Shown: positions 14,861 to 32,072 of the stretch, in pieces
Position numbering within the stretch: the first letter of the stretch is position 1
Layout of the letters: every line of letters begins with the position of its first letter
Assembly (NCBI GenBank): GCA_028292435.1
Contig: JAQGMI010000006.1
Coordinates: 1 to 64,000, forward strand
Direction: 5' to 3'
From: Betaproteobacteria bacterium
Lineage (GTDB): Bacteria > Pseudomonadota > Gammaproteobacteria > Burkholderiales > SG8-41
Length of the DNA stretch: 64,000 nt
Translations under genes and position numbers: made by a program
The notes under the pieces: generated by a model
The model's input: the letters and a program-made list of their open reading frames with translations, nothing else
What the model was told of the DNA's origin: nothing
Databases searched by the model: none

Positions 14861-14868
14861 GCGCGGCT

Positions 14869-15756: not shown

Positions 15757-15809
15757 ACAGAATCGAGTCCGGTGCGCTTAAATGGCCTTCAGTAAGGTAG
15801 AGGCAGCAA

Positions 15810-17642
15810 TCATCGAGCTGGCGTCGCCGGTTTGTCATCCGTTGCCGGCGCCGGGCGCCGCAGGCTCTGCATGCGTTCATTAACTTCCTGCGCCTGCTGC
15901 TGCCAAGCGGCGTCGCCCTTGATTACCGTGGTCTTCAGCAAAATAACAAGTTCGCTTTTATTGAGCTGCCGGCTGCGGCTTCCCAGAATACCGCCGAGTA
16001 TTGAATTGTTCGTTCCCGGCAGGCCGGAGTCCGAGTTGGCCTGCTGCTGTTTCATTAAACCGCCAATCGCGGCGATTGTGCCGTCCTGCACACGGACGAT
16101 GGTATCGCTTTCATTGATATTGCTTGACGCAAGCGGAAGTGTGATGACACCCAGCGTGCCGAGATTCAGCGTCTTCGTCTTGTCTGTAACCAAACTCACC
16201 GATGGATGCACATGCAAGGTAATCTGGTCGTCATCGGAAATCTGCGGCGTCACATCGAGCGCAATGCCCGAAAAGAACGGCGCTACCGTGATGGTCGGCG
16301 ATACCGTGGTCGACGTGCCGCTGGCCGTAGTGGTAGTCGACACATTGGTTACGAAAAATTCGTCGGTGCCGACTTTGATGACCGCCTTCTGGTTATTAAG
16401 AGTGGCAATCCGCGGGCTCGACAACACGTGAACCGTGCCTTGCGATTCGAGAAAACTCAGCAACGCGGCAAAGCTGCTGGTTTGAAATGCAAGGCCGAAC
16501 ACCGACGCAGGCGTCGCTGCACCAGACAGCAGTCTGGCTGTCGCAGAGCCGGCGCTTAGACCACCGAGTGGATCGGGACTAATTGGCAAGGACGAGGCGG
16601 GATCGGCGGTGATTGTCGAATTTGCCAACAACGCCCCATCAGGTCCGCGCGCTGTGAACGATTGCAGTATGCCATCAGTCCGCAATATCGTGCCCGGTTG
16701 AATCAGCCCTGCGCTAAAGCGGCTGTTCGGCCCCGTGTTGAATCCGGCCCAATTGATACCAGTCGAATACTGATCGCTCAAACTCACTTCGATGATTTTC
16801 GCTTCCAGCATGACTTGGCGTTCGACTACGAGCGACATTGCCTTTAGATATTGCTCAACGGACCGCAGCTCATTCGGCAACGCACGTACCAGTATCACGC
16901 CGGCGGTTGGATTGACGACCACGCTGCGGCCGCCCTCGGTGCCGACAATCGAGGTAATTGAGTCGTTGATTTCGGCCCAGAAATCATTATTCGAAGTAGT
17001 CGTCACGCGACTGCTTTCGAGCGACTGCGCCGAACCGCCGGCACCACCCGCAGGCGCTGGAGTCGGCGGCGCACCGGGCGCGCCGGCAGTGCCTTGTGGC
17101 TGCCCCTGCGCCGCAGAAGTCTGTATCGATCCGGACGTGACGCGCACATCGGCCCGGCCGACCCGCCGTCCGGCCAGATAATTCACCTGGAACAAACGCG
17201 TCTGGACGGAAACCGGCTGAATATAGATACGAGTACCCTGGACCTTGTACTCGTAACCGTACAATTCGCGAATTGCTTCCAGCGCCTCGGTCATCGTTAC
17301 CCCCTTGAGATTGACCGAAACCGCATCTTTGATCTCAGGATGTACGAGCATGCTGTAGCGAGTTCCCGATACAAGCGCCATGAACACCTGGTTCGCCGGC
17401 GCATTGTTGACGTTAAGATCGAAACGCGGCTCGACCGGCTGGCTCGCTTTCGGCATTTCAACAGTCAGCGGCGGCAACAGCGCCTGGTTCACGGCATCGG
17501 GCTGTGCTGGCTTGACCCGCGGCTCGGCGGCCTTGCTAAGATCAGCTTCGATCTGTGTCTGCACGAAGTCTTTTTTAAACAGCTTCGACTCGCAGCCAGT
17601 CAGCACAAGGGCTGTCAACAGCACCACTAAAAAAATTTTCAT
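15810..17642 (-). CDS. mshL: MSHA pilus outer-membrane secretin MshL (lipoprotein)
   Basis: A 610-residue secretin that forms the outer-membrane gate for the pilus. It has a lipoprotein signal with lipobox LTGC (Cys17). An N-domain follows (about 70-140: FDLNVNNAPANQVFMALV, then the STN-like SVNLKGVTMTEALEAI), then a Gly/Ala/Pro-rich loop near 185-215. The C-terminal secretin domain holds VLSSPRIATLNNQKAVIKVG and the closing AAIGGLMKQQQ, GLPG and LLKTTV motifs. It lies 19 bp after mshK and before mshM. Confidence 0.93.
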   Translation of the reverse strand: MKIFLVVLLTALVLTGCESKLFKKDFVQTQIEADLSKAAEPRVKPAQPDAVNQALLPPLTVEMPKASQPVEPRFDLNVNNAPANQVFMALVSGTRYSMLVHPEIKDAVSVNLKGVTMTEALEAIRELYGYEYKVQGTRIYIQPVSVQTRLFQVNYLAGRRVGRADVRVTSGSIQTSAAQGQPQGTAGAPGAPPTPAPAGGAGGSAQSLESSRVTTTSNNDFWAEINDSITSIVGTEGGRSVVVNPTAGVILVRALPNELRSVEQYLKAMSLVVERQVMLEAKIIEVSLSDQYSTGINWAGFNTGPNSRFSAGLIQPGTILRTDGILQSFTARGPDGALLANSTITADPASSLPISPDPLGGLSAGSATARLLSGAATPASVFGLAFQTSSFAALLSFLESQGTVHVLSSPRIATLNNQKAVIKVGTDEFFVTNVSTTTTASGTSTTVSPTITVAPFFSGIALDVTPQISDDDQITLHVHPSVSLVTDKTKTLNLGTLGVITLPLASSNINESDTIVRVQDGTIAAIGGLMKQQQANSDSGLPGTNNSILGGILGSRSRQLNKSELVILLKTTVIKGDAAWQQQAQEVNERMQSLRRPAPATDDKPATPAR

Positions 17643-17661
17643 CCCTGTGTCCTTGCCTGAA

Positions 17662-18054
17662 TTATTTGATGTTGTTTTGTTTATGCGCGGACGTCTGCGG
17701 TTTAGGCGCAGGCGGTTTTACCGGGGTCATCTCCACACCCGGATACATTCTTAACGTTTCTGTGCCGCTGCTCGATTTCAACACCACTTCGCCTTCGCTG
17801 ATCTTGATGACGCGTGCTTCCCCGTACTTGCCGTTGAGCTTTACCAGCTCGCCGCCGATCATTGCGGAGCGCGAAGTAGGCGTAATCATTACGCTTTGTA
17901 ACACTGGGCCCGCGGCTACCCCCGTGTTGGTTTCCGCAGCGTATATACCCACGGGGGGACGCGTCGGATCATTCAGAACTTGTGCACTAAGGCTGCCCGA
18001 TCGCACGACCAGCGCCGCGCAAGCAAGCGCCATAACAGTGATGGTTCGAGTCAT
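17662..18054 (-). CDS. mshK: MSHA biogenesis protein MshK
   Basis: A 130-residue periplasmic protein: signal peptide (about 1-24), then LNDPTRPP, the motif that opens MshK and GspC-like or PilP-like domains. A small beta-rich domain follows (QSVMITPTSRSAMIGGELV) and then a Pro/Lys-rich tail. The motif and place between mshJ and mshL give the assignment. It probably links the inner-membrane assembly to the MshL secretin, as PilP does in other type IV pili. The ATG at 18054 overlaps the mshJ stop (ATGA); an ATG at 18066 is an alternative start. Confidence 0.82.
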   Translation of the reverse strand: MTRTITVMALACAALVVRSGSLSAQVLNDPTRPPVGIYAAETNTGVAAGPVLQSVMITPTSRSAMIGGELVKLNGKYGEARVIKISEGEVVLKSSSGTETLRMYPGVEMTPVKPPAPKPQTSAHKQNNIK

Positions 18055-18764
18055 ACTTCCAGCCATGCTTTGTCCAGACTCAGCGTGTAGACCGTCACAG
18101 TCAACGTCAACCGCGGATAGCCTTCGGCACTCAGGCTAGCGCGCGACCAGAACATACGCGACGGCAGTTTTTCCAGGCGCGCCAGGTAATCGTACAAGTC
18201 GGCATAACTGCCCTGCACGGTAATCTGCACACCGTGCTTGAACACGACGCCTTCGCTCACCGTGTTTTTGTCCCGCTTGTCCGGAACTTCCCTTGGCTTG
18301 GCAGCCGTCCCCGGCATATCCTGCTTTTCGGATTTTTTCTCGATGAGCGGTGTCAGCGGCAAAGTGCGCATAGAGATAAGTTGTACCCGCGCATCACGCG
18401 CCAGCACGTCCCGCAGAAGCGCCTTCATGTTCTGAGCAGGCACGAGCTTGTGTTGCAGGTCTATCAGCGTTTCATCGATTGCACCGATCTGACTCTTCAG
18501 TTCGTCACGTCTCACGCGATCGTTTGCATCGGCGCCCGCGCGCTGTTGTTCCATGGACTGGATCTTGAGATTAAAGGCCTGCATCTCCGTCTGCTGCTGT
18601 GCCATCCGGGCCGACAGCACCTTCATTTGCGTCGTTCTGGGATCTATAAATAGCGAATTCATGACAAACGCGACGAATGCAATGAGCGCGAGAAAAAACA
18701 ACACTCGTTCGCGCTGCGCCATGGCGTCGACTTTCGCCGCATACCTGCGCCAACTGCTTTTCAT
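18051..18764 (-). CDS. mshJ: MSHA biogenesis protein MshJ (GspM/PilO-like)
   Basis: A 237-residue bitopic inner-membrane protein: a short basic cytoplasmic start, one membrane helix (about 21-41), a coiled coil (about 43-105), and a C-terminal ferredoxin-like region. The segment containing GVQITVQGSYADLYDYLARLE is typical of GspM/PilO-type alignment proteins. It sits between the PilN-like gene and mshK with 4-bp overlaps, matching the PilM-N-O-P order of other pili. Confidence 0.87.
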   Translation of the reverse strand: MKSSWRRYAAKVDAMAQRERVLFFLALIAFVAFVMNSLFIDPRTTQMKVLSARMAQQQTEMQAFNLKIQSMEQQRAGADANDRVRRDELKSQIGAIDETLIDLQHKLVPAQNMKALLRDVLARDARVQLISMRTLPLTPLIEKKSEKQDMPGTAAKPREVPDKRDKNTVSEGVVFKHGVQITVQGSYADLYDYLARLEKLPSRMFWSRASLSAEGYPRLTLTVTVYTLSLDKAWLEV

Positions 18765-19543
18765 CGCCCACCTGCCTGTTCAACTCGCGCTCTCAATGCG
18801 TCCCGTGTTATGGGCGAACTCAGGTTGCCGAGTAACGGCGCTTCCACGGCGGGTGATTTGCTTACCATTCCCGGATTGTCCGGAATATCGGCCGTCGATA
18901 TCGTGAACTCAAGGAAGCGCGGCAACACCGGCGTCGGTGCTTTGGTATCCTTATCGACCTTTTGCTCTGCCGCGCCTTTTATGGGCTCTGACAGTGGCTG
19001 ATAAATGCGCATCGCAGCGAACTGTTGGCCTTGCAATGCCGGCTCCTGGTTCAATTGCTTAAGATAGTTCGCCACCAGATCGGTGCTCGTCGTGCGGCCT
19101 TGGATTGCGAACTCATTGCCGGCGCGTGCAATATCGAATCCTGTCAGCCATAGACCGCTGACACTTTGACGTGAGAACGCACGCATGTAAGCGGAAAATC
19201 CGTCGGTGTTGCCGATTACTCCATTTTGCAATGCGTCGACAATCTCGCGACGCGCTTGTAGTTTCGCATCGAGCGCGGCAAATTCGGCTTCTGCCTGGGT
19301 ACTCGGCTTCTTGTTCGCGAGCTGAGCGGTCAGCTTTTCGTTCAGAGTGGCGGCTTCTTTATATGCCTGATCGACGGCCGCAGCCTGAGCCTCGAGTGTC
19401 CGCAGCTGCTGATTCTGGTAAACCGCAAACAACGCGGCAATTGCAACGACGATGCCGGTTCCGACCGCCATTGCCATCGCTGAAGCGAAAGAAAATCCCT
19501 TCTTCCTGAAAAGCGGATTAAAAAGGTTGATCTGCTGGCTCAT
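18761..19543 (-). CDS. PilN-like MSHA biogenesis protein (second mshI-type gene)
   Basis: A 260-residue inner-membrane protein starting MSQQINLFNPLF, the PilN signature that binds a groove on PilM-like partners. A membrane helix (about 23-43) and a coiled coil (about 44-100) follow, then a ferredoxin-like domain with DGFSAYMRAFSRQSVSGLWL. It is coupled to mshI upstream and mshJ downstream by ATGA overlaps. In many MSHA annotations it is called mshI2 or simply PilN domain-containing. Its role is to connect the cytoplasmic actin-like MshI to the periplasmic ring. Confidence 0.85.
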   Translation of the reverse strand: MSQQINLFNPLFRKKGFSFASAMAMAVGTGIVVAIAALFAVYQNQQLRTLEAQAAAVDQAYKEAATLNEKLTAQLANKKPSTQAEAEFAALDAKLQARREIVDALQNGVIGNTDGFSAYMRAFSRQSVSGLWLTGFDIARAGNEFAIQGRTTSTDLVANYLKQLNQEPALQGQQFAAMRIYQPLSEPIKGAAEQKVDKDTKAPTPVLPRFLEFTISTADIPDNPGMVSKSPAVEAPLLGNLSSPITRDALRARVEQAGGR

Positions 19544-20490
19544 GTTGCTGCCGCGTTATCGCGGAGAGCCGCGCCGATCGCCTCGAAGCATTGTGATTGG
19601 CGTGCCGGATGCTTTAAGTCAGGAATCGCCGGAAAGTCCAAGACCGAAGAAAGGTCGATGCTTTCGACAGGCACCGACAGATTCGGCGCAAGATATTCAA
19701 GCAGTCCGCATTCCTGCGGTAGCGGCGCGAGCAGTAGTTTTGAGATCGGGACGTAATGGTAGTTGCGATCAAAGTTGTCGAGAGAGCGCTGAAGCTCGAG
19801 CGCGATCCGCTCGAAGGCCTGATTCCGCTGAGCGGCGTCGGTATCGGTATCGGTAATCTGGCTTACTGAAACCTCGATGCGCCGTGCAAGATAGAGCTCG
19901 CCGCCGCGCGTGAAAGTGAGCATTCCCTCTTTCTCAAAGAAAGCGAGCATTGCGACGCCCCGGTCCTCTGGCTCGAACAACGCCGCGATGTTGCGTTGAG
20001 CAAGATCCGGGATATCGATCGCATCCAGTGGAACGGCGGCGTCGTTGAAAAGATTGACGCAGGCTTCAATGACAGTATTGCGTGCGGTGATTGCATACAC
20101 TGAATGATTGCGTGCGGGCGCGTTGCCATCGACCGGGATATCGAGCACGTCGACGGTGGCGGCGTCGAGCGGGTAGTCGATGACGTCCTTGACCCGCCAG
20201 CGGACGGCGGTTTTCAGCTCCGCGGCCGGTACGTTCGGCGCGTCCAGTTGGTGCACCTGATAATCCTGGCTTTTGAGCAGCGTGGTGCAGCGATATTGGT
20301 CGAGGCGTAGTTCCTTGCGCAACCTCGTAAGGGTCTCAGCATAGGAGCCCTCCCGGCGATAGCTTTCGCACAACGTAATCTCGGGTTTGTGATTGACCGT
20401 TCGCTTGACGTGAACGAGGTCAACATGATCCGGATGCAGGCCGAGCGCCAGCCATCCTGACCGTTTCCTTCCCTGAGAAAACCAAGCCAT
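19540..20490 (-). CDS. mshI: PilM-like MSHA biogenesis protein MshI
   Basis: A 316-residue cytoplasmic protein of the actin-like PilM/MshI group, with no membrane helix. The AELKTAVRWRVKDVIDYPLD segment and the later AIDIPDLAQRNI are characteristic of MshI. It should pair with the PilN-like protein encoded next. It follows a 95-bp gap after mshQ that contains a good -35 box, and AAGGGA lies eight bases before its ATG. It therefore probably starts a second transcript for the assembly genes mshI to mshN. Confidence 0.87.
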   Translation of the reverse strand: MAWFSQGRKRSGWLALGLHPDHVDLVHVKRTVNHKPEITLCESYRREGSYAETLTRLRKELRLDQYRCTTLLKSQDYQVHQLDAPNVPAAELKTAVRWRVKDVIDYPLDAATVDVLDIPVDGNAPARNHSVYAITARNTVIEACVNLFNDAAVPLDAIDIPDLAQRNIAALFEPEDRGVAMLAFFEKEGMLTFTRGGELYLARRIEVSVSQITDTDTDAAQRNQAFERIALELQRSLDNFDRNYHYVPISKLLLAPLPQECGLLEYLAPNLSVPVESIDLSSVLDFPAIPDLKHPARQSQCFEAIGAALRDNAAAT

Positions 20491-20528
20491 TTACTATCCC
20501 TTGTTTTCGTTTTGGCTAGAGCTTGTTG

Positions 20529-20557
20529 AAGCTAATTTAACGTGCAGTCGTTGTCAA
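20529..20557 (-). promoter_or_regulatory. Candidate promoter for mshI-mshN
   Basis: On the minus strand a perfect TTGACA (20552-20557) is followed after 17 bp by TAGCTT (20529-20534), about 40 bp before the mshI start. The -10 is weak, but spacing and position are right for an internal promoter splitting the pilus locus into two transcripts. Confidence 0.45.
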
Positions 20558-20585
20558 TTACTTTGCTGCGCAAATGCCCTTCACA

Positions 20586-23500
20586 TCAGTAGTTCTCACG
20601 CTGGTAGATAAACTTGTCGGAATTGCGGTAAGTGCCGAAGGTTGCACGCGCGCTGGGATTGTCGGTATAGGTCGCGCCGCTCCAAGCGCCTTGCAAATAC
20701 GTTTTGGCCGCGCCGGTCAGATCTCCCGTCACATCAACGCTGCCGCGATTGCCGGCCCCGGGCGCGGGCAAGCGCAAACTGCCGATTCCTGCACTGAATG
20801 CCCCGCCGACAGTTGGCGCGCCGATTGTGAACGCAGGGGGTTGAGGATTACCCACCGTGACGCTACCCGTTACCGTTGTGCAGTTGTCTGCGCCGTTGGT
20901 GACGAAACCGGTTCCATTCCAGTACTGCGTTTGAATCGGGACAGGCATCGAAATCAATTCGGAGCCGTTGGCGTTCTGCAATCTCAGCCGTCCATAGCGG
21001 AATTCGTTGCCAGAATCGAATGCAATCGCACTGATGACCAAAGGCGACGCCGTGGTAATAACTTGAGTGGCTCCCTCGGCGTTATCACTCGCCGCGACTG
21101 TATTATTGATGCTGGCGGTAAACAGCGCTTGAGGCAACGCGGGGCTGCGTGTGAATGCGAGCAGATCGCTGAGCGTATAGGTCACCGTACCTGTGCCATT
21201 GCTGTTGGACACGACACTCGCCGTGGCAGGAGATGCCCCGTTATTGTCCCAGCCCGGCGCCGGTGTGCTCACAGGTAGAAGCGAATATGTATAGGTTTCT
21301 GTTACCAAGCCGCCGGTAGCGCCGAACGTTGTCGTCAACACACACGTGTTCGCATCGGGTGCGGTCGTGCAGTTCTTTGCCGCTGCGCTCACGCCGCCGA
21401 CGCCGATTTTCCATAATGTGCCACGGTAGTTAGCGGTCGTCGTGCCCGCCGCGTTGCGCGCAATTATCGTGAACTGCGGTATCGTTGAATAGCCGAATGG
21501 TTGCCCGATATAAGTAAATGTTCGCTTTGGGCCAGTCCCGGTGCATGATGTATCCAAAGCATTGAACGTTTTGAAAGTCGGCGTGACCGCCGCGGTCACA
21601 TCAAAATGATCCGGCACGAATCGTCCGATTTGCACAGTGGCGGTGGCCGGAATAGTCAATGTCGCCGCTGGCGTGCCGTCCACGGAATCGACACTCGCAT
21701 AGTTCGAATCCACGAGTTGTAGATTGAATGATCCAACCTCGGAATAATTGGCTGTCGCATTCTCACGCACACCGCTGCCGGCGCTCGTCCACGAAGCGCT
21801 CGCAATGCCGAGTATGCCGGGGGACGTACACAGTGCTCCTAAGCCCGTACAACTCGGAAACCCGGCAACCGCCGTTGGGTTTCCGTTGTAGTTCGTTGCG
21901 CTCGCCGGAACGGGTGTAGCACGCAAAGTAAACGGACGGGGTGTTGCTGCAGTGGATTCTGACGCCTTGTGCACAATGCCCCCACTTGCAGTGACATTGG
22001 CGAGTGCCCGAGCGGTTCCTGCGCTTTGCCAGTCGAGATCCAGCGCCGAGACTGTCAGACTTTGAGGTCGTATTGCGAAACGATCCGTCGAGCAGCCGAT
22101 TTGCGTGTAAGGACCGCCGACCGGTGAACGGATCTGAAAGCGCACATCGCGATATGAATTGTTGACCGTAACAGCAGGAAGAGTGCCGCGACCGCTCGCC
22201 GGAATACTGAAATTGGCTTGCGCCTGAATGAGCGGCCAACCAGCGTTGCAGCCATTCACGTCGAGCACCCCGCCGCTACTGCTGTCCAGCAGGCGCACTT
22301 CAACAGTTACCGCCACGGGCGAAACGGCCGTCTTGGTCGCGTTGATGTGCACGACATCAAGGGTGAACCCGACGCCTGCGATCTTCGTCTGAATTTTTCC
22401 GAGGATAGATCCCGCCGGTGTCGACGTCTCGAACACGTTGTATAGCCCGGGCACCGCGGTGATCCCGGCGATTGGCTCTCCAATCGCAAAATCGCCATAT
22501 GCATTGACGACGCCCGTCACAGACGTGCTGCTTGCACCAGCCGCACCCAAGGTTGTCGGATTCCAATTGGTGCCGTTATAGCGTTCGACTATGAAGTTCG
22601 ATGTGGACGCGCCCGCGTCGAGATCAACCGGAGTGCCCGGAATGAAGTTGAATGTTGCGTTATAAGTAGAGGCCACCGGAAGCCCGGCTGCGGTCAGCGT
22701 CCAGAACCGGTTAACGCTTTGAAGCGCGTCGATCCCGGTGCTTGCAATGGGTGCCGTAACCTGTGGATGGTCAGTGCCGGTCGTGCTAATTGTTAGACTG
22801 CCGGCCGTGAATCCGGCCGTTCCTTGTATCGTCACCGGCGTGTAATTATTTGCGTCCCCCACCGGAAAGGTAAGTGTTCCAGCCGCTGAGTAATTCTTCT
22901 GAACAAAGCCGGCGACGTAACTTGATGCGCCCTGTGTTGGGACCGTCGCCGCAGTTCCCAGGACAACGCGATTTGCGCCTGTGACAATCGTGCCGCTTGT
23001 AAGCGTCAATGTCGTGTTAACGGTCGCGGTCGATGAAAGCGTGACGCCATTCACGCTGTTCATGAGGAGGTTACTGAATGCCAACGCCGTGCCCGAGAGT
23101 GTTTGCGTTCCTGCAGTAAGCTTGTTACTAGTCACAATACCGGTAGTCAATGTTCGAGTGAACGTACCATTCATCGTCGCGTTTGCCCCGCGAAGATTCA
23201 GCCTACCGGCAGCAGAATGAACAAACGTCCCATTGTTCACAAAATCACCGTTCGCATTGATGGTGCCGGTGGTACTGGTTGTGATCAATCCGCTGGTCGA
23301 AGCATTTGTGTTGTTTGTTAATGTACCCCCGACCGTAATGGTGCCGACACCGGACAGCAGGATGGAGTCAGTGCCCGTGCCGGCTACGGTGCTTGAATTT
23401 GTTAGATTCCCGGCGATGTTGAGCAGGCCGGTGCTCACTGTGGTACTTGCGACAAGTGTCGTGTTGCTATTGCTAAACGTCGCGCCGGGACTGCTGACGG

Positions 23501-24467
23501 TGAAGGTGCCTGCGCCGACGGTTATAGTGTCCCCGTTGGTCACTCCCGCAACTCCGTTGACGATTATAGTGCCCGTGCCGCTAATCGAAGCCGTCGCCGA
23601 CCCAGCGGTGCTGGACGGCGCCAGGCGCAAATTTCCGGTGACCGTGATCGCGCCGTTGTTTGTCGTCAGAAGCGCGTCGCGCGTTGCACTGCCATTACCG
23701 CCCGTGATCGAGACGTCGCCCGCGACGTTCAGATTTCCCGTCGCGGTTACCGACGCAGTGGCTGCGGTGTTATTGGCTACGTTACTGCCGTTCAGTGCGA
23801 GATTTCCGCCTACTGATATCGTGCCTGTATTGGTAACGGTCAGGACAGCCGTGGACTGAACGGCACCGGCGTTAAGTGTGGCATCGCCGGTGACGGTAAT
23901 CGTCCCGGATGTGGCAGATACAGAGGCGAGGTTGCCGCCACCGCCGCCCGCCGAGCCGCCGTTGATGACGAGGTTTCCCCCGACCGTCAATACGCGGTCG
24001 GCGACGGCAATCTGCTTGGTGACAGTCGCTGTCGGCGCATTAATCGTGACATCGTTGGTGACAATGAGACTTGAGCCGCCGGCAAATGTCAGTCCGGTGG
24101 CGGTACCGCCGGTCGCGATCGTGACTGATGCAGCGGTCCTTGCGGCGTCGACAGAGATGGTGATGCCATTGCAAATCGTGACATCATCTGCGCTCGTCGG
24201 AAATGTAGTCGCCCCCGCGGCCGCGCAACTTGCGGAACTCCAGTTACCATTCGTACCCCAAGTACCCGCTGTCCTCCCAAATTTTGGAGCGGCAACTGAA
24301 TAGTCACTTGAAAGGCCAGCGCCAATGAACAGAATTATTAACACGACCGTCTTCAGAAGACTTGCGATATCTCCGACCTGTGGTTGCTTGGCTCGAATGT
24401 TTTTGATTTGCTGCAAATGAGTGCTCGCTATCGCGCTCGCTGCCCCGCTAGAATCGTGGCTGGTCAT
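20586..24467 (-). CDS. mshQ: MshQ-like giant surface or pilus-associated protein (DUF6701 C-terminal region)
   Basis: A 1293-residue exported protein, the largest in the window. After a membrane or signal segment (about 38-59), residues 60-480 form many short Gly/Thr/Val repeats (variants of ITVTGNL and TVGGNLAL). These look like a right-handed beta-helix of the adhesin kind. A second beta region follows to about 660. From about 669 to the end it matches the DUF6701/MshQ region: DHFDVTAAVTPTFKTFNA, FTYIGQPFGY, and near the C-terminus RYGRLRLQNANGSEL. Its ATG overlaps the mshP stop. The likely role is as adhesive tip or surface partner of the pilus; this is inference from family and location. 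Confidence 0.85.
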   Translation of the reverse strand: MTSHDSSGAASAIASTHLQQIKNIRAKQPQVGDIASLLKTVVLIILFIGAGLSSDYSVAAPKFGRTAGTWGTNGNWSSASCAAAGATTFPTSADDVTICNGITISVDAARTAASVTIATGGTATGLTFAGGSSLIVTNDVTINAPTATVTKQIAVADRVLTVGGNLVINGGSAGGGGGNLASVSATSGTITVTGDATLNAGAVQSTAVLTVTNTGTISVGGNLALNGSNVANNTAATASVTATGNLNVAGDVSITGGNGSATRDALLTTNNGAITVTGNLRLAPSSTAGSATASISGTGTIIVNGVAGVTNGDTITVGAGTFTVSSPGATFSNSNTTLVASTTVSTGLLNIAGNLTNSSTVAGTGTDSILLSGVGTITVGGTLTNNTNASTSGLITTSTTGTINANGDFVNNGTFVHSAAGRLNLRGANATMNGTFTRTLTTGIVTSNKLTAGTQTLSGTALAFSNLLMNSVNGVTLSSTATVNTTLTLTSGTIVTGANRVVLGTAATVPTQGASSYVAGFVQKNYSAAGTLTFPVGDANNYTPVTIQGTAGFTAGSLTISTTGTDHPQVTAPIASTGIDALQSVNRFWTLTAAGLPVASTYNATFNFIPGTPVDLDAGASTSNFIVERYNGTNWNPTTLGAAGASSTSVTGVVNAYGDFAIGEPIAGITAVPGLYNVFETSTPAGSILGKIQTKIAGVGFTLDVVHINATKTAVSPVAVTVEVRLLDSSSGGVLDVNGCNAGWPLIQAQANFSIPASGRGTLPAVTVNNSYRDVRFQIRSPVGGPYTQIGCSTDRFAIRPQSLTVSALDLDWQSAGTARALANVTASGGIVHKASESTAATPRPFTLRATPVPASATNYNGNPTAVAGFPSCTGLGALCTSPGILGIASASWTSAGSGVRENATANYSEVGSFNLQLVDSNYASVDSVDGTPAATLTIPATATVQIGRFVPDHFDVTAAVTPTFKTFNALDTSCTGTGPKRTFTYIGQPFGYSTIPQFTIIARNAAGTTTANYRGTLWKIGVGGVSAAAKNCTTAPDANTCVLTTTFGATGGLVTETYTYSLLPVSTPAPGWDNNGASPATASVVSNSNGTGTVTYTLSDLLAFTRSPALPQALFTASINNTVAASDNAEGATQVITTASPLVISAIAFDSGNEFRYGRLRLQNANGSELISMPVPIQTQYWNGTGFVTNGADNCTTVTGSVTVGNPQPPAFTIGAPTVGGAFSAGIGSLRLPAPGAGNRGSVDVTGDLTGAAKTYLQGAWSGATYTDNPSARATFGTYRNSDKFIYQRENY

Positions 24468-24907
24468 GGGCTCACCAAAATGGTGATCTGACGCTCAACG
24501 TAATTCGCGTCCGGCGATGCAGGCGGGCATAGTGCGTTGTTGCATGCCGTGGCAACGATAGTGTCCATGTTTACAGTCGCCCCCGCCTCGTTGAACGTGT
24601 TGCGTAAACATGTGACGGTTACTGTAAAGCCGCTTAACGTGTTCGCAGGTGTCACGGGCGTGCTCGCGGCGCAGGCATTGTTGCGCAATGAATTGAATGC
24701 GCCCCATTCAGCGCCTGAGCGCGCCGCCGCATAAGCACGGGTGCCGAGTGTGTCCAGCGAAGTTCCGGCTTCCTGGTAAACCCGAAAACTGATCATGTAT
24801 GCACTTAGCAACATTAATATCGTGATCAAAAACACGGCGGTCACAAGCGTGAACCCGCCTTCACGTGAAGCACGACGTCCGAACTGTGATTGCTGGCGTC
24901 GCTTCAT
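24464..24907 (-). CDS. mshP: Minor pilin-like protein MshP
   Basis: A 147-residue pilin-like protein with a class III-type leader ending in REGG and a mature start FTLVTAVFLITILML. The usual Glu at mature position 5 is Thr here. That Glu normally pairs with the N-terminus of the next subunit, and its absence is typical of a subunit that caps the tip, like GspK. Two Cys pairs (around CAAS/CLRN and CNNALC) may form disulfides. It overlaps mshO and mshQ by 4 bp each. The assignment rests on position and the PilX/MshP-like start. Confidence 0.82.
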   Translation of the reverse strand: MKRRQQSQFGRRASREGGFTLVTAVFLITILMLLSAYMISFRVYQEAGTSLDTLGTRAYAAARSGAEWGAFNSLRNNACAASTPVTPANTLSGFTVTVTCLRNTFNEAGATVNMDTIVATACNNALCPPASPDANYVERQITILVSP

Positions 24908-25818
24908 GGAACGTTGCTCACCTGAACCTGCTGAAACAGGTTCACGGCAGTGGCGCTGGTAGCATCGCTGAAACCAAGCTGGATTGAGACCACGCCGACA
25001 CGCTGATTGATTACGTTCTGGTCGTAGGTGATTGTGCAGCTGGCGATATCTTGCGCCAGCAGACTCGTCGTGCCGACTGGCGGCGATGGCTGCGCAACCG
25101 CGATCGTATAAGCTGAAATCCGGCTCAACGTATGTGCGCCGGGATCGCAGACGTATGAGACAGGACCCGACACGATCTGGAAGCGCTGACTCGGCGACTC
25201 GAGCGAGAATTTGTGTGCGGCGAATTGAACGACGTTTTCACCGCCGGCGCCGGCTGAAACTGTCGATATCAGGCTCTTGTTGCCCGTAATTGCGGTGGTT
25301 GCCGCATACGCATCGGCATTGCTGAAGCCGCTCCCGAGATTGTAAACAACGAGGTAATCGGTATTCACAATGGCGGCGCGATTTGGCAGACCGCCCAGCG
25401 TCGTAAAGCACGTGTCGGACACGCTGGTGACAAAAGCATCCCCTGCTGCGTCGCCGACAACTGCGTCGCAAATATGCGCGGGCGCCGAGGACAATTGCGA
25501 ACGATAACGTCCGCCAGTACGCGTCTGCAAAAATTCGAGGTAATAAACGGCTCCAACGCTCTTCACACGCACGCTGTTGGGCAATGCGGTTTGCAGGTCG
25601 CGCTTGATCTGCATAAAAGCGGTGTTCGCAGCATCCGTAATCGACGCCCGCCGTTGTGCGTCTTGATATTGCTGCAAGGGCACCCGCAGAAAAACGGCGA
25701 CTGCAGCAGCAATAATGGCCGTGATCGAAATCACCGTGACCATTTCGACGAGCGTAAAGCCGCCTGCGACGCTGCGCGCGAAAACCGCAAGAGGCCTAGG
25801 TTTGCGCATGGTGATCAT
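24904..25818 (-). CDS. mshO: Minor pilin-like protein MshO
   Basis: A 304-residue prepilin-like protein, longer than an ordinary pilin. A 19-residue basic leader ends in Gly, followed by FTLVEMVTVISITAIIAAA with Glu5 present. The globular part starts with QYQDAQRRASITDAANTAFMQIKRDLQTALPNSVR, a pattern shared with GspJ/PilW-like minor pilins. It probably belongs to the tip or priming complex with MshC, MshD and MshP. It overlaps mshD upstream and mshP downstream (ATGA both). An ATG at 25809 is also possible. Confidence 0.85.
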   Translation of the reverse strand: MITMRKPRPLAVFARSVAGGFTLVEMVTVISITAIIAAAVAVFLRVPLQQYQDAQRRASITDAANTAFMQIKRDLQTALPNSVRVKSVGAVYYLEFLQTRTGGRYRSQLSSAPAHICDAVVGDAAGDAFVTSVSDTCFTTLGGLPNRAAIVNTDYLVVYNLGSGFSNADAYAATTAITGNKSLISTVSAGAGGENVVQFAAHKFSLESPSQRFQIVSGPVSYVCDPGAHTLSRISAYTIAVAQPSPPVGTTSLLAQDIASCTITYDQNVINQRVGVVSIQLGFSDATSATAVNLFQQVQVSNVP

Positions 25819-26375
25819 AGAGTCGGCGCATATCTCGTCCGATAGCCGGCGAGCGTAACGGTGACATTGGCAGGACCCGTCACAGTCACCGTGATAAGCA
25901 ATACATCGCTGGCGTTATCGTTGGCGCCAATTCCGCTGAGTGCCACTCCGGCCACCGCAACCTCGGCGCTGTAGTTTGCAAGGCCGGGAATTAATGTATT
26001 CGTGATGTCCCTGATACCGGGTGACGCGTCGGTCTTGGTATTGAAACCGTTGTAGTCGTTTACGTTGTCGAAAGGTTTAAATGTGTCGTAACGCGATTCG
26101 CCAGCCTCGGGTCCGATCGCTTCCGGAATAGCGCAGCTCGCTGCACTGGTGGCAGTGGAAACCGCCGGATCATCGGGGTCGCAGTAAGTAAAAGGCATCT
26201 GTTGGATTTCTTCGAGCAGCGATTCGGCAATCGCAAGCGCCTGTTTCTTGACGACGGGATCGGCACTGCCGCGCGCGGCAAAATCGAACGCAAGCAAGGT
26301 TCCCGCAACGCCGGCGCCCATGATTGCAATAAACAGCACGAGCTCTATCAGAGTGAAGCCGCGTTGCGCCTTCAT
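25815..26375 (-). CDS. mshD: Minor pilin-like protein MshD
   Basis: A 186-residue prepilin-like protein: leader MKAQRG, mature start FTLIELVLFIAIMGAGVAGT with Glu5. The segment KKQALAIAESLLEEIQQMPF after the helix is characteristic of GspI/PilV-like minor pilins and MshD. The rest is a beta-rich domain with DNVNDYNGF. I chose the ATG at 26375 for the standard short leader; GTG codons at 26381 and 26387 are in frame and would overlap the mshC stop. Confidence 0.87.
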   Translation of the reverse strand: MKAQRGFTLIELVLFIAIMGAGVAGTLLAFDFAARGSADPVVKKQALAIAESLLEEIQQMPFTYCDPDDPAVSTATSAASCAIPEAIGPEAGESRYDTFKPFDNVNDYNGFNTKTDASPGIRDITNTLIPGLANYSAEVAVAGVALSGIGANDNASDVLLITVTVTGPANVTVTLAGYRTRYAPTL

Positions 26376-26380
26376 AATCA

Positions 26381-26881
26381 CTAGCACCCGGGCGCACCGG
26401 CGAGGCAGTGGACGTATCCGGTAACTGCATCGACGTAAAAAGTGCGACTGACGTCACCCACGCCCGTGCTGTTGACAGTAATCATTTGCGCCGCGCTTGG
26501 ACTGCCGTTGCCATCGAAAGTGAAAGTGGTGGCAGCAGCGAAAGCGACACCTGATGGCGTACCAAGTGAGAGTGCCGACCCGGTTGACGGATCTATCACG
26601 GCGCCGCCAGTACCATCAGGTTTTTTGCAGCAGACGCTGACCGAGTTCGCGGTTATGGTTACAACGATTGGTTGACCGGACGGCAGGGTTCGGCGCTGTG
26701 CAATTGCAATCTTCTGCGCATAGCGCACCATATTTTGCGCCTGATCGTAAAACCCGCGGGATTCAAAACCTGTACGGTCCATGAACCGCGGGGCAGCGAA
26801 TGCAGCCAGGATACCGATCACGATCAAAGTCGTGATCAGCTCGACAAGCGTAAAACCTCTGAGGTCGGCCTTTTTACTCAT
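26381..26881 (-). CDS. mshC: Minor pilin-like protein MshC
   Basis: A 166-residue prepilin: leader MSKKADLRG, then FTLVELITTLIVIGILAAFA with Glu5. The next segment, APRFMDRTGFESRGFYDQAQ, then MVRYAQKIAIAQRRTLP, is the usual MshC/FimT-like motif. A Cys pair lies in SVCCKKPDG and another near the C-terminus (HCLAGAPGC). I chose the ATG at 26881 for its short leader; an upstream in-frame start at 26983 would give an unlikely 43-residue leader. It begins 112 bp after the last MshA-like gene. Confidence 0.87.
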   Translation of the reverse strand: MSKKADLRGFTLVELITTLIVIGILAAFAAPRFMDRTGFESRGFYDQAQNMVRYAQKIAIAQRRTLPSGQPIVVTITANSVSVCCKKPDGTGGAVIDPSTGSALSLGTPSGVAFAAATTFTFDGNGSPSAAQMITVNSTGVGDVSRTFYVDAVTGYVHCLAGAPGC

Positions 26882-26993
26882 CGGGTCGTGTTGCCGCTGA
26901 AAAGACACGGGGCGGTATGCCGCATTGCGCGTTGCACCCGCCCCGTTTCGCCGCACTGGATTCCGCCAGAACGGCCGCGACAAAACTATTCGT

Positions 26994-27431
26994 TCAGCAG
27001 CCGCCCGAAACTACCGTGGCAACGCCCGTCGCCTCATTGTAGGTAACGTTACAAGTCGCCACTGCCGTTTGAAAATCCCACGTGCCGGTGCCGGTACCGG
27101 GGGTATAGACGAACGTGCCGCCGCTGTTCACCGCAGTCGCAATTCCCGCCGCAGCGTCGGTCGGAATTCCGCCAGCCGCGCCGGTGCTCACTGCAACCGT
27201 GGTTGCATCAAGCATCGTAACCGGCGTCGCGTTTGTGCCCAGCGCAATATAGCGACCTTGGACGACGCTAACTGCTGCGCGAGTGGCGCCGGCCAAGCCA
27301 TTCAATGCCGAAATTCGCGCCTCTTTTGTGTAACTCGCATACTTGGGAATTGCCGTTGCCGCCAGTATGCCAAGGATAACGATTACGACCACCAATTCGA
27401 CCAACGTAAAACCGTGTTGTAAGCGCTCCAT
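26994..27431 (-). CDS. MshA-like type IV pilin, copy 1
   Basis: A 145-residue type IVa prepilin. The seven-residue leader MERLQHG precedes [20 protein letters not shown], with Glu5 and the conserved Pro22 kink. After the helix comes [21 protein letters not shown], then [14 protein letters not shown], a short variable domain and two Cys (ATCNVTY and the final GGC), the usual C-terminal disulfide. It is very similar in DNA and protein to copy 2, so the two arose by recent tandem duplication. By similarity to MshA it should be a main shaft subunit; which copy dominates cannot be told. Confidence 0.9.
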
Positions 27432-27454
27432 GATCCCCCCGTGAAGTGAAGCTA

Positions 27455-27886: not shown

Positions 27887-27981
27887 TAGTAAACTCCCAA
27901 TAAATTTTCGTTGTAATCCCGCTGCACGGGAACCTGATCTTCCTAATAAACATTCAGCAGGTTTCGTGCCATCGGCAAGGA

Positions 27982-28482
27982 TTAGCTACATCCGGCGGTG
28001 TTCGGTGCACTGAATACCGGAGCAGTGATTACACCCGCTGCCAGATTGGCGGAGGTGTACGTAAAACTGCAAGTTGCAGGCGTGGTGCTGCCTAATACTT
28101 GAACGGTAAGCGTCGTGTTTCCCGCAGCTCCACCACCGGTCGTGGCAAAGCCTTCAGCTGCGCTAATCGTGACTCCCCCGGCGGAAACGATACCCGCCGC
28201 ATCGGCGGTAGGATATTGATTGATAAGGGTTACATTAACCCCTTCCATTGGCAGGTTAAATGCGGCTGCAGTGCAGGGAGCCGCGCCTTGGGTCGAAAGA
28301 CAAGCACCGTGCGCGATCGCCGCCGCCCCCTTCATCGAACCTAGTGCGCCGTTGAGTTTAGCGATTCGTGCCTGCGTCTGGAGAGCCGCGTACCGAGGCA
28401 ATGCCGTGGCCGCCAAGATGCCTAATATGACGATTACTACGACCAGTTCAATCAACGTAAAGCCGGTTTGCCGTGCGTTCAT
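27982..28482 (-). CDS. MshA-like type IV pilin, copy 3 (divergent)
   Basis: A 166-residue prepilin with leader MNARQTG and mature start [20 protein letters not shown]. The helix matches the other two copies, but the head domain is different and larger, with two Cys pairs ([11 protein letters not shown], and ATCSFTY with the final AGC). It resembles standard MshA ([17 protein letters not shown]) more than copies 1 and 2 do. I chose the ATG at 28482 because GAGG lies five bases upstream. A candidate promoter at 28570-28599 stands before it, so it would be the first gene of a pilin transcript. Confidence 0.9.
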
Positions 28483-28569
28483 ATGCACCTCGCTAGTGAC
28501 CGAAGTCACAGAATTTAGTTAAAAAAGTCGCCATAACTGCCGATGTTTCAACAAGTTTTCCGGGCGGGA

Positions 28570-28599
28570 AGTATATCACTTGCGTGACCCTGGTGCTAA
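28570..28599 (-). promoter_or_regulatory. Candidate promoter for the three pilin genes
   Basis: On the minus strand TTAGCA (28594-28599) is followed after 18 bp by TATACT (28570-28575), with a TG pair one base upstream giving an extended -10. It overlaps the end of the minor pilin gene and leaves a leader of about 80 nt before the copy 3 pilin. Major pilins usually need stronger expression than the assembly genes, which fits. Confidence 0.42.
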
Positions 28600-29093
28600 A
28601 ACCACTTATATCTAGAAACTGGAGCCAGAGTGACGCCTGCCACGGTTTTAGCGGCAAGGCGAGCGTCGACCTCCTGCCGAACAGATACCCGAAATCGCAA
28701 TTCCTTCTTGCCACCGTCCGTTTCAAGATAAGCGCGATTGTTAAGCACATAAACCAACTCGTGCTCTCCAGTCGAGTAATACCAGCTCCCGCCGGTCAAA
28801 GGTGGACCGTAATCGCCCGCATACGTGCTCGGTCGATCCTGCAACCAGCGGATCGGATTCTCGGTCTCTAACTCGCGGACATCCATCCGATTCGTAGCCA
28901 TCATTTCCGCCATTCGAATCTGGACGCCCATTTTGACGCCGGATAGAACGGATTCCATCGCTGCCTTTTCTGCTCTCTCCTGCCAATACAAAAAACGGTC
29001 GCTTGCAAAAACAGACAACGCACTAATGATGCTGATTACCAGGATCAGTTCGATCAATGTAAAACCGAGGAGGTGCTGCGGCCGCGGAATCAT
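28596..29093 (-). CDS. Minor pilin-like protein between mshG and the mshA genes (MshB/MshF position)
   Basis: A 165-residue prepilin-like protein: leader MIPRPQHLLG, then FTLIELILVISIISALSVFA with Glu5 present. The helix continues into SDRFLYWQERAEKAAMESVL, and the head contains NPIRWLQDRPSTYAGDYGPP and GSWYYSTGEHELVYVLNN. There are no Cys. In Vibrio-type loci mshF and mshB occupy this place; the WYYSTGEHELVY pattern is of the kind seen in pseudopilin heads that bind a partner. I cannot decide between the two names. It lies 43 bp after mshG. Confidence 0.8.
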   Translation of the reverse strand: MIPRPQHLLGFTLIELILVISIISALSVFASDRFLYWQERAEKAAMESVLSGVKMGVQIRMAEMMATNRMDVRELETENPIRWLQDRPSTYAGDYGPPLTGGSWYYSTGEHELVYVLNNRAYLETDGGKKELRFRVSVRQEVDARLAAKTVAGVTLAPVSRYKWF

Positions 29094-29136
29094 CTCGACG
29101 CACCGTACATTAATTTGGTTGGGATTAAACTTACCG

Positions 29137-30363
29137 TCATTGGTGCATCATCGCTTTTCCGAGATCCCAGATCGGCAGAAACACGCCAAGTGCGAGTATC
29201 AATACGAGGACCGCCAGACAGATAATGAGGATAGGCTCGATCTGCGAAGACAAAGTCTTTAACTCGTACTCGACCTCACGCTGATACATCTCGGCGATTT
29301 CCTGCATCAAGTCGTCCAGCGCGCCCGATTCTTCGCCGACTGCGATCATTTGCAGGACGACAGGCGTGAAAACACCGGCGGCGGACGCCGTACGCAATAC
29401 AGCTTCTCCGCGTTCAACGCCCTCACGCATTTTTTCGATCTTGGCGGCTATGTAATCGTTGTCTACTGTCTGCGCTACGGTCGTCAACGCCTGCACGACG
29501 GGCACGCCGCTGCGGCTTGCCAAGGCGAAACTGCGGGCAAAGCGTGACAGCGTTGCCTTGAGTATGATTTTGCCGGCAATGGGGATTTTTAGTTTAATTT
29601 CATCCCATTTAAGCTTGCCGGCGCGCGTTCGCGTCCACCCGCGAAACCCGAAAAATGCACCGATAACTGCGACCAGCATCGCCGGCCACCATGCAACCAT
29701 GAGGTTCGAGAAGTCGATCAAGATTTGGGTCATCAACGGCAGCTTGGCGTTGAACCCCTTGTAAACCTTTGCGAACGCCGGAATTACAAACAAGTTGATA
29801 ATCACAATTGCGACCGCCATGGTGGCGATCACGAAGCTTGGATAGCGAATCGCGGACTTGATCTGCTCGCGCATAAACTTTTCAAACTCAAGATGGTGGA
29901 ACATCCGCAGAAAAATTTCTTCGAGCTGGCCCGTCATTTCGCCGACGCGCACCATGTTGATATAGAATGGCGAGAAAACGTTCGCCTGACGCCCCATCGC
30001 TGCTGACAGTTCACGCCCGCCGTCGAGACTCTCGCGCACGTCTTTGATGACCGCACCGAACGTTGGATTGGTGGACGATTCCTGCAGGCCGGCAAGCGCA
30101 CGCATGATAGGGACACCGGCCTTCAGCAACGTATACATCTGGCGGCTGAACAACATCAGGTCGTCCGGCTTGATTTTTTCCTGCGTAAGACGCGCAAGAA
30201 TGCCCGCGCCGCCGTTAGCTGGCGCGCTGGTTGGCACGATCTCGACTGGAGTAATGCCAAGCGTGAACAACTGCGAAGCGGCAGCGCCGGTGTCGGCGCT
30301 TTCTAGTACGCCTTGAACGAGTTCGCCGCCGGAGTCACGCGCCTTGTAAGCGAAGTGCCCCAT
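29137..30363 (-). CDS. mshG: Inner-membrane platform protein MshG (GspF/PilC family)
   Basis: The polytopic platform on which the pilus is built, partner of the MshE motor. The 408-residue protein starts MGHFAYKARDSGGELVQGVLE as this family does. It has the duplicated GspF domain: first copy LFSRQMYTLLKAGVPIMRAL (about 70-90), second copy RFARSFALASRSGVPVVQAL (about 270-290), with three membrane helices, the last near the C-terminus (LIICLAVLVLILALGVFLP). The ATG at 30363 follows the mshE stop closely; a GTG two codons upstream overlaps that stop. Confidence 0.93.
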   Translation of the reverse strand: MGHFAYKARDSGGELVQGVLESADTGAAASQLFTLGITPVEIVPTSAPANGGAGILARLTQEKIKPDDLMLFSRQMYTLLKAGVPIMRALAGLQESSTNPTFGAVIKDVRESLDGGRELSAAMGRQANVFSPFYINMVRVGEMTGQLEEIFLRMFHHLEFEKFMREQIKSAIRYPSFVIATMAVAIVIINLFVIPAFAKVYKGFNAKLPLMTQILIDFSNLMVAWWPAMLVAVIGAFFGFRGWTRTRAGKLKWDEIKLKIPIAGKIILKATLSRFARSFALASRSGVPVVQALTTVAQTVDNDYIAAKIEKMREGVERGEAVLRTASAAGVFTPVVLQMIAVGEESGALDDLMQEIAEMYQREVEYELKTLSSQIEPILIICLAVLVLILALGVFLPIWDLGKAMMHQ

Positions 30364-30365
30364 CG

Positions 30366-32072
30366 TCACGCGTCTTCGAACTGATTGCTGATGCGCATTG
30401 CCTCTTCAACCGTCGTCCTGCCTTGAACCACCAATTGCGCCGCATGGCCGCGCAGGGTATGTTCGCCGATCTCACGCTGGGCAACATCGATAAAGAGCGC
30501 GGGATCTTCCTGGTTGGCCGCCTCCACCACCGACTTGTTCATTTCGAGCATCTCATACACGCCCGTACGACCCAGGTAGCCCGTGCCATTGCAGTGCGAA
30601 CAACCCTTGCCTTTGGTGTAGCGGTAGTTATCCACTTTGGCGCCCAATTCGTGTGAAAGCCAGGCGTGTTCAGCCGGAAGTAGTGCATGCGTTGCCGCGC
30701 AGCTTTCACAAATCACACGCACAAGCCGCTGCGCGAGCACCATCTGCAGCGACAGTGCGACCATATAACGGGGAGCACCCATGTCGATCAACCGAATAGG
30801 CGTCGTCACTGCGTCGTTCGTGTGCAGCGTGGAGAGCACGAGGTGGCCGGTCATCGCGGCCCGCAAGCCGGTTTCGACTGTCTCCCGATCGCGCATTTCG
30901 CCGACCAAGATGATATCGGGATCCTGCCGCAAGGCTGAACGCAACACGCGGCCGAAGGAAAGTTCGATTTTCTCGTGCACTTGAACCTGGTTAATGCCAG
31001 CCAGCCGATATTCGACCGGATCCTCCACCGTGATGATCTTGCGCTCGAGCGTGTTTAACTGAGCGAGCGCAGCATAGAGAGTTGTCGTTTTGCCGCTGCC
31101 GGTGGGTCCGGTTACCAGCACCATGCCGCTCGGACGCCGCAGCACAGCTTGTAATCGCTCGAGGATATGTGCGGGCATGCCGAGCTTGTCGAGGGTCAAG
31201 ATGCCGCCGCTCTGATTCAATAAGCGCATCACAACCGATTCCCCGTATTGCGTTGGCATGGTCGAGATACGAACGTCGACCATGGCATTGCGAATTTTTA
31301 CGTTGAAACGGCCGTCCTGAGGCAGGCGCTTTTCGGAAATGTCGAGTCCGGACATCAATTTGAGCCGCAAGACGAGCGCCGAGGCAATTTTCGGGTCTGC
31401 TTCAGTTTGCAGATGCAGTACGCCGTCGATGCGAAACCGGATAACGAGCTTGCGTTCCTGCGGCTCGATGTGAATGTCCGACGCGCGAACCTGGCTTGCA
31501 TCTTCGAATACAGATTGAAGAAGTTTGACGACCGGCGCTTCCTCAAGTCCGGGCGTCAGCGCGAGCGCGCCGAAATCGACTGCATCGTCTCCGAGCTCGG
31601 CTTTCAGCTCCTGCGCGAGGCCGCTGATTTCGCCGGTACGGCGGTAGACGCGATCGATCGTCTCGAGAAGTTGCGACTCGGTCACGACGACAATTTCTAT
31701 CTCGCGCTTGAGAATGCGCGAGATCTCATCGTATGCGTTCAAGTCGCTGGGGTCGGCCATGCCGACCTTGAAGGCTTTCGGATTGTCCTCGAGCGCGATG
31801 GCACGGAAACGGCGGGCCTGCGTTTCGGGCAGCTTCTGCGTGACTTCGGGCTTCAGGTTGTAATACTTAAGATTGATGTACGGAATCTGCAGCTGTTTCG
31901 CCAGGGCTTCGGAGATCTCTTCCTCGGTGACGTAGCCTTGTTCAATGAACACGCGGCCGAGCTTGCGGCCGCTGCGCTTTTGTTCATCGAGTGCAAGCTT
32001 CAACTGCTCGGGAGTCAGCAGCTTTTGCTGAACGAGGATTTCGCCGAGGCGAACTTTTTCGGGTCTTGCCAT
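30366..32072 (-). CDS. mshE: Pilus extension ATPase MshE with N-terminal MshEN domain
   Basis: The hexameric motor that drives pilus assembly. The N-terminal MshEN domain (1-145) binds cyclic di-GMP in homologs through two RLG-type motifs. Here motif 1 is RLGEILVQQKLL, with Lys17 where Gly is usual, and motif 2 is KLGRVFIEQGYV. The ATPase has Walker A GPTGSGKTT (322-330), the Asp box, Walker B DPDIILVGEMRD (384-395) and the His box, plus a zinc site made of two CxxC pairs (CESC and CSHC). The 568-residue length is usual. It is the first gene of the MSHA locus; GGGAG precedes its ATG. Confidence 0.95.
   Translation of the reverse strand: MARPEKVRLGEILVQQKLLTPEQLKLALDEQKRSGRKLGRVFIEQGYVTEEEISEALAKQLQIPYINLKYYNLKPEVTQKLPETQARRFRAIALEDNPKAFKVGMADPSDLNAYDEISRILKREIEIVVVTESQLLETIDRVYRRTGEISGLAQELKAELGDDAVDFGALALTPGLEEAPVVKLLQSVFEDASQVRASDIHIEPQERKLVIRFRIDGVLHLQTEADPKIASALVLRLKLMSGLDISEKRLPQDGRFNVKIRNAMVDVRISTMPTQYGESVVMRLLNQSGGILTLDKLGMPAHILERLQAVLRRPSGMVLVTGPTGSGKTTTLYAALAQLNTLERKIITVEDPVEYRLAGINQVQVHEKIELSFGRVLRSALRQDPDIILVGEMRDRETVETGLRAAMTGHLVLSTLHTNDAVTTPIRLIDMGAPRYMVALSLQMVLAQRLVRVICESCAATHALLPAEHAWLSHELGAKVDNYRYTKGKGCSHCNGTGYLGRTGVYEMLEMNKSVVEAANQEDPALFIDVAQREIGEHTLRGHAAQLVVQGRTTVEEAMRISNQFEDA

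Follow-up and report, generated by a model that had tools for sequence, protein, structure and literature searches.

What is a protein with an adhesin-like front half doing in a pilus operon? The question is raised by a gene at positions 20586 to 24467 (minus strand) of contig JAQGMI010000006.1 from a Betaproteobacteria bacterium (assembly GCA_028292435.1), of which the stretch analysed here, the window, covers the first 64,000 nucleotides. By its sequence and surroundings, the gene is the mshQ of a mannose-sensitive haemagglutinin (MSHA) pilus operon. A first-pass annotation had assigned the last ~620 residues of the product to the DUF6701/MshQ region, described a long beta-helix-like stretch of short repeats in place of the usual N-terminus, and proposed a tip adhesin or a pilus-exported surface protein. 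We suggest that MshQ probably belongs to the MSHA type IV pilus as a non-pilin exported by the Sec route, that its most likely place is the pilus tip, and that it would work like PilY1/PilC. The literature already labels MshQ a putative MSHA adhesin, so that a modular tip protein resembling PilY1 is what one would ordinarily expect. What is new is the C-terminal tail, including its occurrence with a head and without DUF6701 in two draft genomes.

The mshQ product and its predicted fold

The gene and the parts of its product are as follows.

20586..24467, minus strand: mshQ, 1293 residues, with a predicted solenoid head, a DUF6701 rear half and a conserved tail
24288..24467, minus strand: N-terminal extension and Sec-type signal peptide, residues 1-60, read by eye
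23118..24185, minus strand: predicted beta-solenoid, residues ~95-450, from the structure model and VIA-align matches
22482..22922, minus strand: distal beta domain (FPVGD..SVNRFWTL..GDFAIGE), residues ~516-662, of lower model confidence and with related Bacteroidota stretches
20595..22103, minus strand: DUF6701 (PF20419), residues 789-1291, by Pfam profile match
20589..20639, minus strand: C-terminal tail FGTYRNSDKFIYQRENY, residues 1277-1293, conserved, a candidate docking signal

The assignment of the rear half to DUF6701 and MshQ was borne out. The Pfam profile matches residues 789-1291 at E 6.3e-67 (227.5 bits against a curated cut-off of 27) and is the sole Pfam family listed for the protein at E <= 1, while residues 660-1293 are homologous to seven other MshQ proteins at 31-58% identity. 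Within MshQ no prepilin (N_methyl) motif was matched by Pfam or NCBIfam profiles, and NCBIfam gave no match at E <= 1 to the type IX sorting domain TIGR04183. Only mshQ itself was matched at E <= 0.001 when its own genome was searched with the protein. At the front, the mshQ ATG overlaps the stop codon of the upstream mshP-like gene (ATGA), and the ~36 residues ahead of the hydrophobic signal stretch (24345-24467) may be either an extended signal peptide or the result of a start dictated by that overlap.

The head is biased in composition: G, T, V, N, S and A make up 77% of residues 95-450 versus 59% of residues 664-1293. A rung-like motif, [VIA]xG[ND][LAVFI], which was picked after inspecting the sequence, occurs 8 times in the head compared with 0.73 times per shuffle, and none of 5,000 shuffles reached 8. 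No fixed repeat length rose above shuffles (autocorrelation at lags 15-39 in five residue classes, p >= 0.49), and a tandem repeat finder at its lowest threshold reported a single 27-bp array near the start and otherwise none. The earlier description of residues 60-480 as short Gly/Thr/Val repeats is therefore only loosely right: the composition and the rung-like motif are there, a fixed repeat length is not.

We modelled residues 56-662 with AlphaFold2 (AF2) from 14 aligned rows, obtaining a predicted template modelling score (pTM) of 0.82 and a mean predicted local distance difference test score (pLDDT) of 77.4. The model has three-strand rungs over model residues ~40 to ~395, spaced 26-31 residues apart across model residues 69-242 and less regularly beyond, after which come longer strands and a beta domain of lower certainty. 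VIA-align superimposed the head on the Sf6 tailspike with a Z score of 20.0 (root-mean-square deviation 3.5 over 324 residues), and gave Z scores of 16.6 for UpaB, 14.8 for TibA and 13.6 for an L. reuteri SRRP. This comparison, a second look at the list produced by Foldseek, is one in which repeats score well against each other, and among the structure searches it is the one that supports a solenoid. A sequence search of solved structures with MshQ gave nothing useful (best E 0.87). We regard a beta-helix or solenoid as a well supported prediction for the head; thus the structure prediction that the first-pass annotation had proposed as a check came out in favour of its beta-solenoid. The autotransporter adhesins UpaB and TibA have a passenger fold like the one predicted here, whereas MshQ has no Pfam match to a C-terminal autotransporter barrel at E <= 1, its C-terminal half being DUF6701. 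The fold likeness indicates neither a ligand nor an enzyme activity.

Heads of other MshQ proteins

DUF6701 was detected in 23 of 60 relatives and in 45 of 398 genomes of a phylum sample. We scanned 26 N-terminal regions from the relatives against curated cut-offs. Laminin_G_3 was over its cut-off in 8 and Laminin_G_2 alone in 2 more; PA14 (both times with LamG) and G8 were found in 2 each, and F5/8C with Big_7, PKD, TIG, and Gly_rich_2 with Reelin in 1 each. Right-handed Beta_helix (PF13229) was over cut-off in one region, that of L033:4055-8854. Two regions had a sub-threshold head match only (G8 in L045, glycine-rich in L040), and 7 matched no family at E <= 0.05. The G8 domain (PF10162) has no match in the MshQ of the window; among homologous heads it is over cut-off in L041 and L046, under it in L045, and unmatched in L043 and L047. 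A further 45 N-terminal regions (42 from the phylum sample and 3 fetched via a head search) yielded Laminin_G_3 in 17 and PA14 in 4 at E <= 0.001. The LamG-type lectin is the largest recognised head class, and most heads are something else. One DUF6701 protein (L052:4715-12553) reaches 2,612 residues and has TIG domains in its scanned 851-residue N-terminal part.

Among 116 unique DUF6701 open reading frames (ORFs) with 800 residues or more, a few of them cut at contig ends, home-made profiles labelled 10 as carrying the solenoid module, 42 as LamG and 64 as neither. The solenoid is over-represented in this set, since head searches had supplied five of its ten carriers (L096, L098, L100, L233 and L234); L096 (also as L238), L098 and L100 match the head mainly in its distal part. 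A less biased count was obtained by anchoring on mshI, which was matched at E <= 1e-15 in 80 of 300 genomes of the order, giving 73 examined sites with the window's own left out. The ORF directly upstream of mshI carried DUF6701 at 54 of these, and the solenoid module at 7 (5 with and 2 without DUF6701). The remaining 17 sites include contig ends, cases with mshQ further off (G071, G136) and, by eye, at least two apparently unrelated neighbours. A direct search for the head, in which for many genomes no more than four first-look candidates were scored, gave matches in 10 of the 300 genomes at E <= 1e-10. Nine lie at an mshQ site, among them the one in G185, which is cut by a contig end after mshP. 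The tenth, in G104, belongs to a different protein with a DUF11-type repeat. A solenoid-headed DUF6701 gene in G032 (L043:5551-9402, on C127) has no msh neighbours by tblastn in its 17-kb stretch, and the same genome also holds an operon copy of mshQ (L048).

The solenoid head is not standard among MshQ proteins. The MshQ of the window shares DUF6701, the operon place and the conserved tail with the other MshQ proteins of MSHA pili, and differs from them in its head, a predicted solenoid plus distal beta domain as against LamG, PA14, F5/8C, PKD, TIG and others. The proposal that a repeat region replaces the usual N-terminus thus stands as far as the head is unusual (7 of 73 sites), with other heads in relatives by profile scan, but fails in that no single usual N-terminus exists.

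A quick tree built from the C-terminal ends of 117 DUF6701 proteins (the last 480 residues of the 116 ORFs and of the window protein), with 41 of 114 inner branches open, suggests how the heads are distributed. The solenoid label requires 9 changes for 11 rows, or at least 6 when only well supported branches are counted; the mean for shuffled labels was 10.7, with 9 or fewer in 23 of 500 shuffles. For all three head labels together 34 changes were counted versus 43.8 in shuffles, none of 200 shuffles being as low, so that heads are somewhat clustered, yet far above the minimum of 2. In these counts 'neither' is a mixed class, and a change on the tree does not equal a single transfer event. In G003 (L041) a solenoid mshQ and a LamG mshQ are adjacent and have nearly identical tails; adjacent DUF6701 gene pairs were also seen in L031, L032, L174, L182 and L122. 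Variable heads combined with nearly constant C-terminal residues suggest that MshQ is a pilus protein whose heads can be exchanged and whose small tail serves for docking.

The C-terminal tail

When the region 814-1293 was divided into 16 blocks of 30 residues, the last block had the highest mean majority fraction over the 117 rows (0.53), narrowly ahead of the block 1174-1203 (0.51); residues 814-1263 averaged 0.34. Five positions of the tail, whose pattern is FG...I-Y-x-R-E-x-Y, are strongly conserved (F1277 0.97, G1278 0.99, I1287 0.91, R1290 0.83, E1291 0.97). All 7 paralog pairs compared, six adjacent and one non-adjacent, agree more closely in their last 30 residues than over the remainder, ranging from 29/30 vs 264/508 identities in G003 down to 15/30 vs 234/516, a likeness for which gene conversion could be an alternative cause.

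The strict tail pattern terminates 74 of 126 DUF6701 ORFs (six duplicates included). Of the 5,764 other ORFs with 100 residues or more in the scanned, partly overlapping loci, it terminates 2, both at mshQ sites. With a looser protein pattern the figures are 104 of 126 and 5 of 5,764, three of these five looking like chance. Gammaproteobacterial MshQ proteins often have a longer or different C-terminal end. At the DNA level, a degenerate tail pattern was found 32 times, in 30 of 300 genomes, and its reversed control once. Loci were available for 30 hits: 26 of them close a DUF6701 ORF, one closes the G164 protein and three fall in unrelated ORFs. The hits without loci are G105:C9, which is the DUF6701 gene of L203, and G186:C23, which was not read. 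The tail of G201 has L in place of F and hence was missed. The tail thus appears nearly specific to mshQ genes, and we consider it a candidate for a minimal docking signal.

This distribution bears on whether MshQ could instead be a type II-like substrate of the MSHA machinery, secreted or anchored in the outer membrane outside the pilus. Such a route has some appeal, MSHA machines being close kin of type II secretion according to passages in PMC10191384, and the distal head domain being common to proteins with a type IX sorting tail (see below). A general secretion signal should, however, end other proteins too, and the strict tail is found on just the two other ORFs at mshQ sites, with the genome-wide pattern adding outside mshQ genes only the three unrelated ORFs and the one hit not read. 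The place of mshQ with the minor pilins and its overlap with the preceding gene also argue against secretion outside the pilus, which we regard as very unlikely.

The two ORFs that end in the strict pattern without containing DUF6701, L097:6328-8436 and L101:7894-10080, encode short proteins directly before mshI and among other msh genes (mshC, D, O and P plus the mshI-N set in the fetched stretch of L097, with mshE and mshG as well in L101). They match the head at E 6e-59 and 2e-51, respectively, and the tail follows directly after it, the C-ends being ...FSREKEFIYTRELY (L097) and ...FSREKELIFTRERY (L101). Neither genome has a DUF6701 match to the Pfam profile at E <= 0.1, the same search being positive in two genomes of the same family; an alignment-based search was likewise empty, without a positive control. 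Both are drafts of one family, that of G164 and G201, and at 94% and 85% completeness a DUF6701 gene elsewhere in them may have been missed. Two incomplete genomes of a single family would be compatible with gene decay or an assembly error, the tail being a functionless leftover. We find this distinctly improbable, as the proteins are 43% identical over 523 query residues with both frames open, both end exactly in the tail, both lie among msh genes, and the DUF6701 searches found no separated rear half. In L097, the stretch that separates the mshP-like gene from the short mshQ (4325-6300) holds extra genes that by eye resemble toxin-antitoxin genes, along with a second, cut mshP-like stretch.

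We also ranked msh gene scores relative to mshI, from the lowest, across loci. L097 and L101 came 3rd and 6th of 54 for mshD, 4th and 3rd of 57 for mshO, 8th and 1st of 57 for mshP, and 10th and 7th of 22 for mshL, in a comparison that concerns two genomes of one family and in which some low values elsewhere are due to cut loci. It is possible that divergence of the minor pilins (mshD, mshO and mshP, not mshL) is linked to the loss of DUF6701.

Parts of the head also occur outside MSHA loci. Named genomes were scanned with one peptide pattern taken from the distal domain, so that only loci with this domain could be found; 26 of 43 stretches were confirmed. Bacteroidota account for 15 of them and betaproteobacterial DUF6701 genes for 7; the others are the G104 protein and single stretches from Verrucomicrobiia, Candidatus Eisenbacteria and Thermoanaerobaculia. 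The Bacteroidota frames mostly span 2,000-3,500 codons, several being cut by the stretch end, and several of the proteins also match part of the solenoid profile. Among the 19 loci lacking DUF6701, C-ends were checked for 10. The type IX sorting tail TIGR04183 was over cut-off in 7 (6 of 8 Bacteroidota and the Eisenbacteria protein) and just under it in one more, and two were unmatched, one of them the G104 protein. These large Bacteroidota proteins thus resemble MshQ in the distal domain and differ in carrying, in 6 of 8 C-ends tested, the sorting domain instead of DUF6701 and the MshQ tail. It is conceivable, though we would put it at somewhat below even chances, that the last ~17 residues (FG...IYxRExY) are a transferable signal that alone attaches a passenger to the MSHA pilus, with DUF6701 as an optional stalk, and that heads are exchanged between betaproteobacterial proteins with the MshQ tail and Bacteroidota proteins with the type IX sorting tail.

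Operon context and proposed role

The co-directional cluster from 13484 to 32072 contains mshQ and 17 other msh-like genes. Eight are pilin-like; seven of these exceed a cut-off for a prepilin domain, and the mshP-like one is only weakly matched. Names that go beyond the profile matches are ones we presume from position.

30366..32072, minus strand: mshE-like extension ATPase, with MshEN and an MshE-related cyclic di-GMP-binding domain
29137..30369, minus strand: mshG-like inner-membrane platform, T2SSF match
28596..29093, minus strand: mshF-like protein, TIGR02532 over and N_methyl under cut-off, named by position
27982..28509, minus strand: mshB-like pilin, N_methyl, named by position
26994-27431 and 27455-27886, minus strand: two adjacent mshA-like pilin genes, N_methyl, named by position
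26381..26983, minus strand: mshC-like pilin, N_methyl, named by position
25815..26387, minus strand: mshD-like minor pilin, N_methyl, named by position
24904..25818, minus strand: mshO-like minor pilin, N_methyl, named by position
24464..24907, minus strand: mshP-like minor pilin, by position and a weak pilin-family match (E 0.0069)
19540..20490, minus strand: mshI-like (PilM-like) gene directly downstream of mshQ, weak PilM match (23.6 bits, cut-off 133)
18761-19543, 18051-18764 and 17662-18066, minus strand: three genes at the mshI/J/K place, the first with a PilN match, the others by position only
15810..17642, minus strand: mshL-like secretin, Secretin match; best NCBIfam match MshL TIGR02519 (237 bits, under the cut-off of 250.2)
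14869-15756, minus strand: mshM-like AAA protein, AAA match, named by position
13484-14935, minus strand: mshN-like TPR protein, TPR match, named by position

In the model that we favour, every step of which beyond the gene structure is inferred, MshQ would be exported by Sec, as the signal peptide read by eye suggests, and its tail, plus DUF6701 where present, would dock on the minor pilin complex MshC/D/O/P. The growing pilus would then pass the MshL secretin with MshQ at its end, leaving the head facing outward to bind a surface or polysaccharide; in other lineages other heads would give other binding. The varied, often lectin-like domains found at the head position in relatives support a binding head. 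The parallel is with PilY1/PilC of type IVa pili, which, in passages of PMC9109919 and PMC10191384, combine a variable N-terminal module with a conserved C-terminal part, proposed for Myxococcus PilY1 to prime pili (PMC9109919). Like MshQ, PilY1/PilC is a non-pilin; it differs in its C-terminal family, the PilY1 domain PF05567 having no Pfam match in MshQ at E <= 1 (sequence profile only). Elsewhere in the host genome of the window a weak PilY1-type match (G000:C85:78032-78637) lies inside a 1,988-codon frame.

A tip adhesin or pilus-exported surface protein, as first proposed for this gene, would agree with its modular make-up, its place in the operon and the published label. In sections of PMC7096442, Vibrio cholerae MshQ is termed a 'putative MSHA adhesin' and is reported to be needed for normal MSHA piliation, its deletion lowering surface MSHA and leaving retraction intact. 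PMC4094467 reports effects on squid host specificity for a set of msh genes that includes Vibrio fischeri mshQ; a V. cholerae msh gene table in PMC4624765 gives no homologue for mshQ, and an extract of PMC7439477 shows a large length difference between the MshQ proteins of two Shewanella strains. A literature search, with subscription papers mostly outside its scope, found no paper on DUF6701 and, by the terms used, none on the domain make-up of MshQ.

Several points weigh against a tip-located MshQ with a solenoid binding head. Foldseek matched the head model to no solved structure at E <= 0.001 (best 0.11). The AF2 model of the DUF6701 half was poor (mean pLDDT 53 from 8 rows), too poor for use, and was therefore left out of the fold search. 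Moreover, MshQ may be a periplasmic assembly factor instead, since the drop in surface MSHA on deleting V. cholerae mshQ, as given in the sections of PMC7096442 cited above, fits both roles. MshQ would then act mainly in assembly or priming, with the variable head as a periplasmic or structural spacer that binds nothing, and besides the deletion phenotype with its working retraction, the conservation of the rear half and tail, rather than of the head, would agree with such a role. Against this, the heads of relatives are often lectin-like or other domains familiar from binding proteins and differ even between tree neighbours, and we consider the assembly role unlikely.

Under the favoured reading of MshQ as a tip protein, the varied heads would make up a naturally occurring collection of binding modules, and the proteins lacking DUF6701 would single out a short C-terminal stretch as the docking candidate. 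If this is true, tip heads in this line of pili are exchangeable in much the same way as in PilY1, though carried by an unrelated protein.

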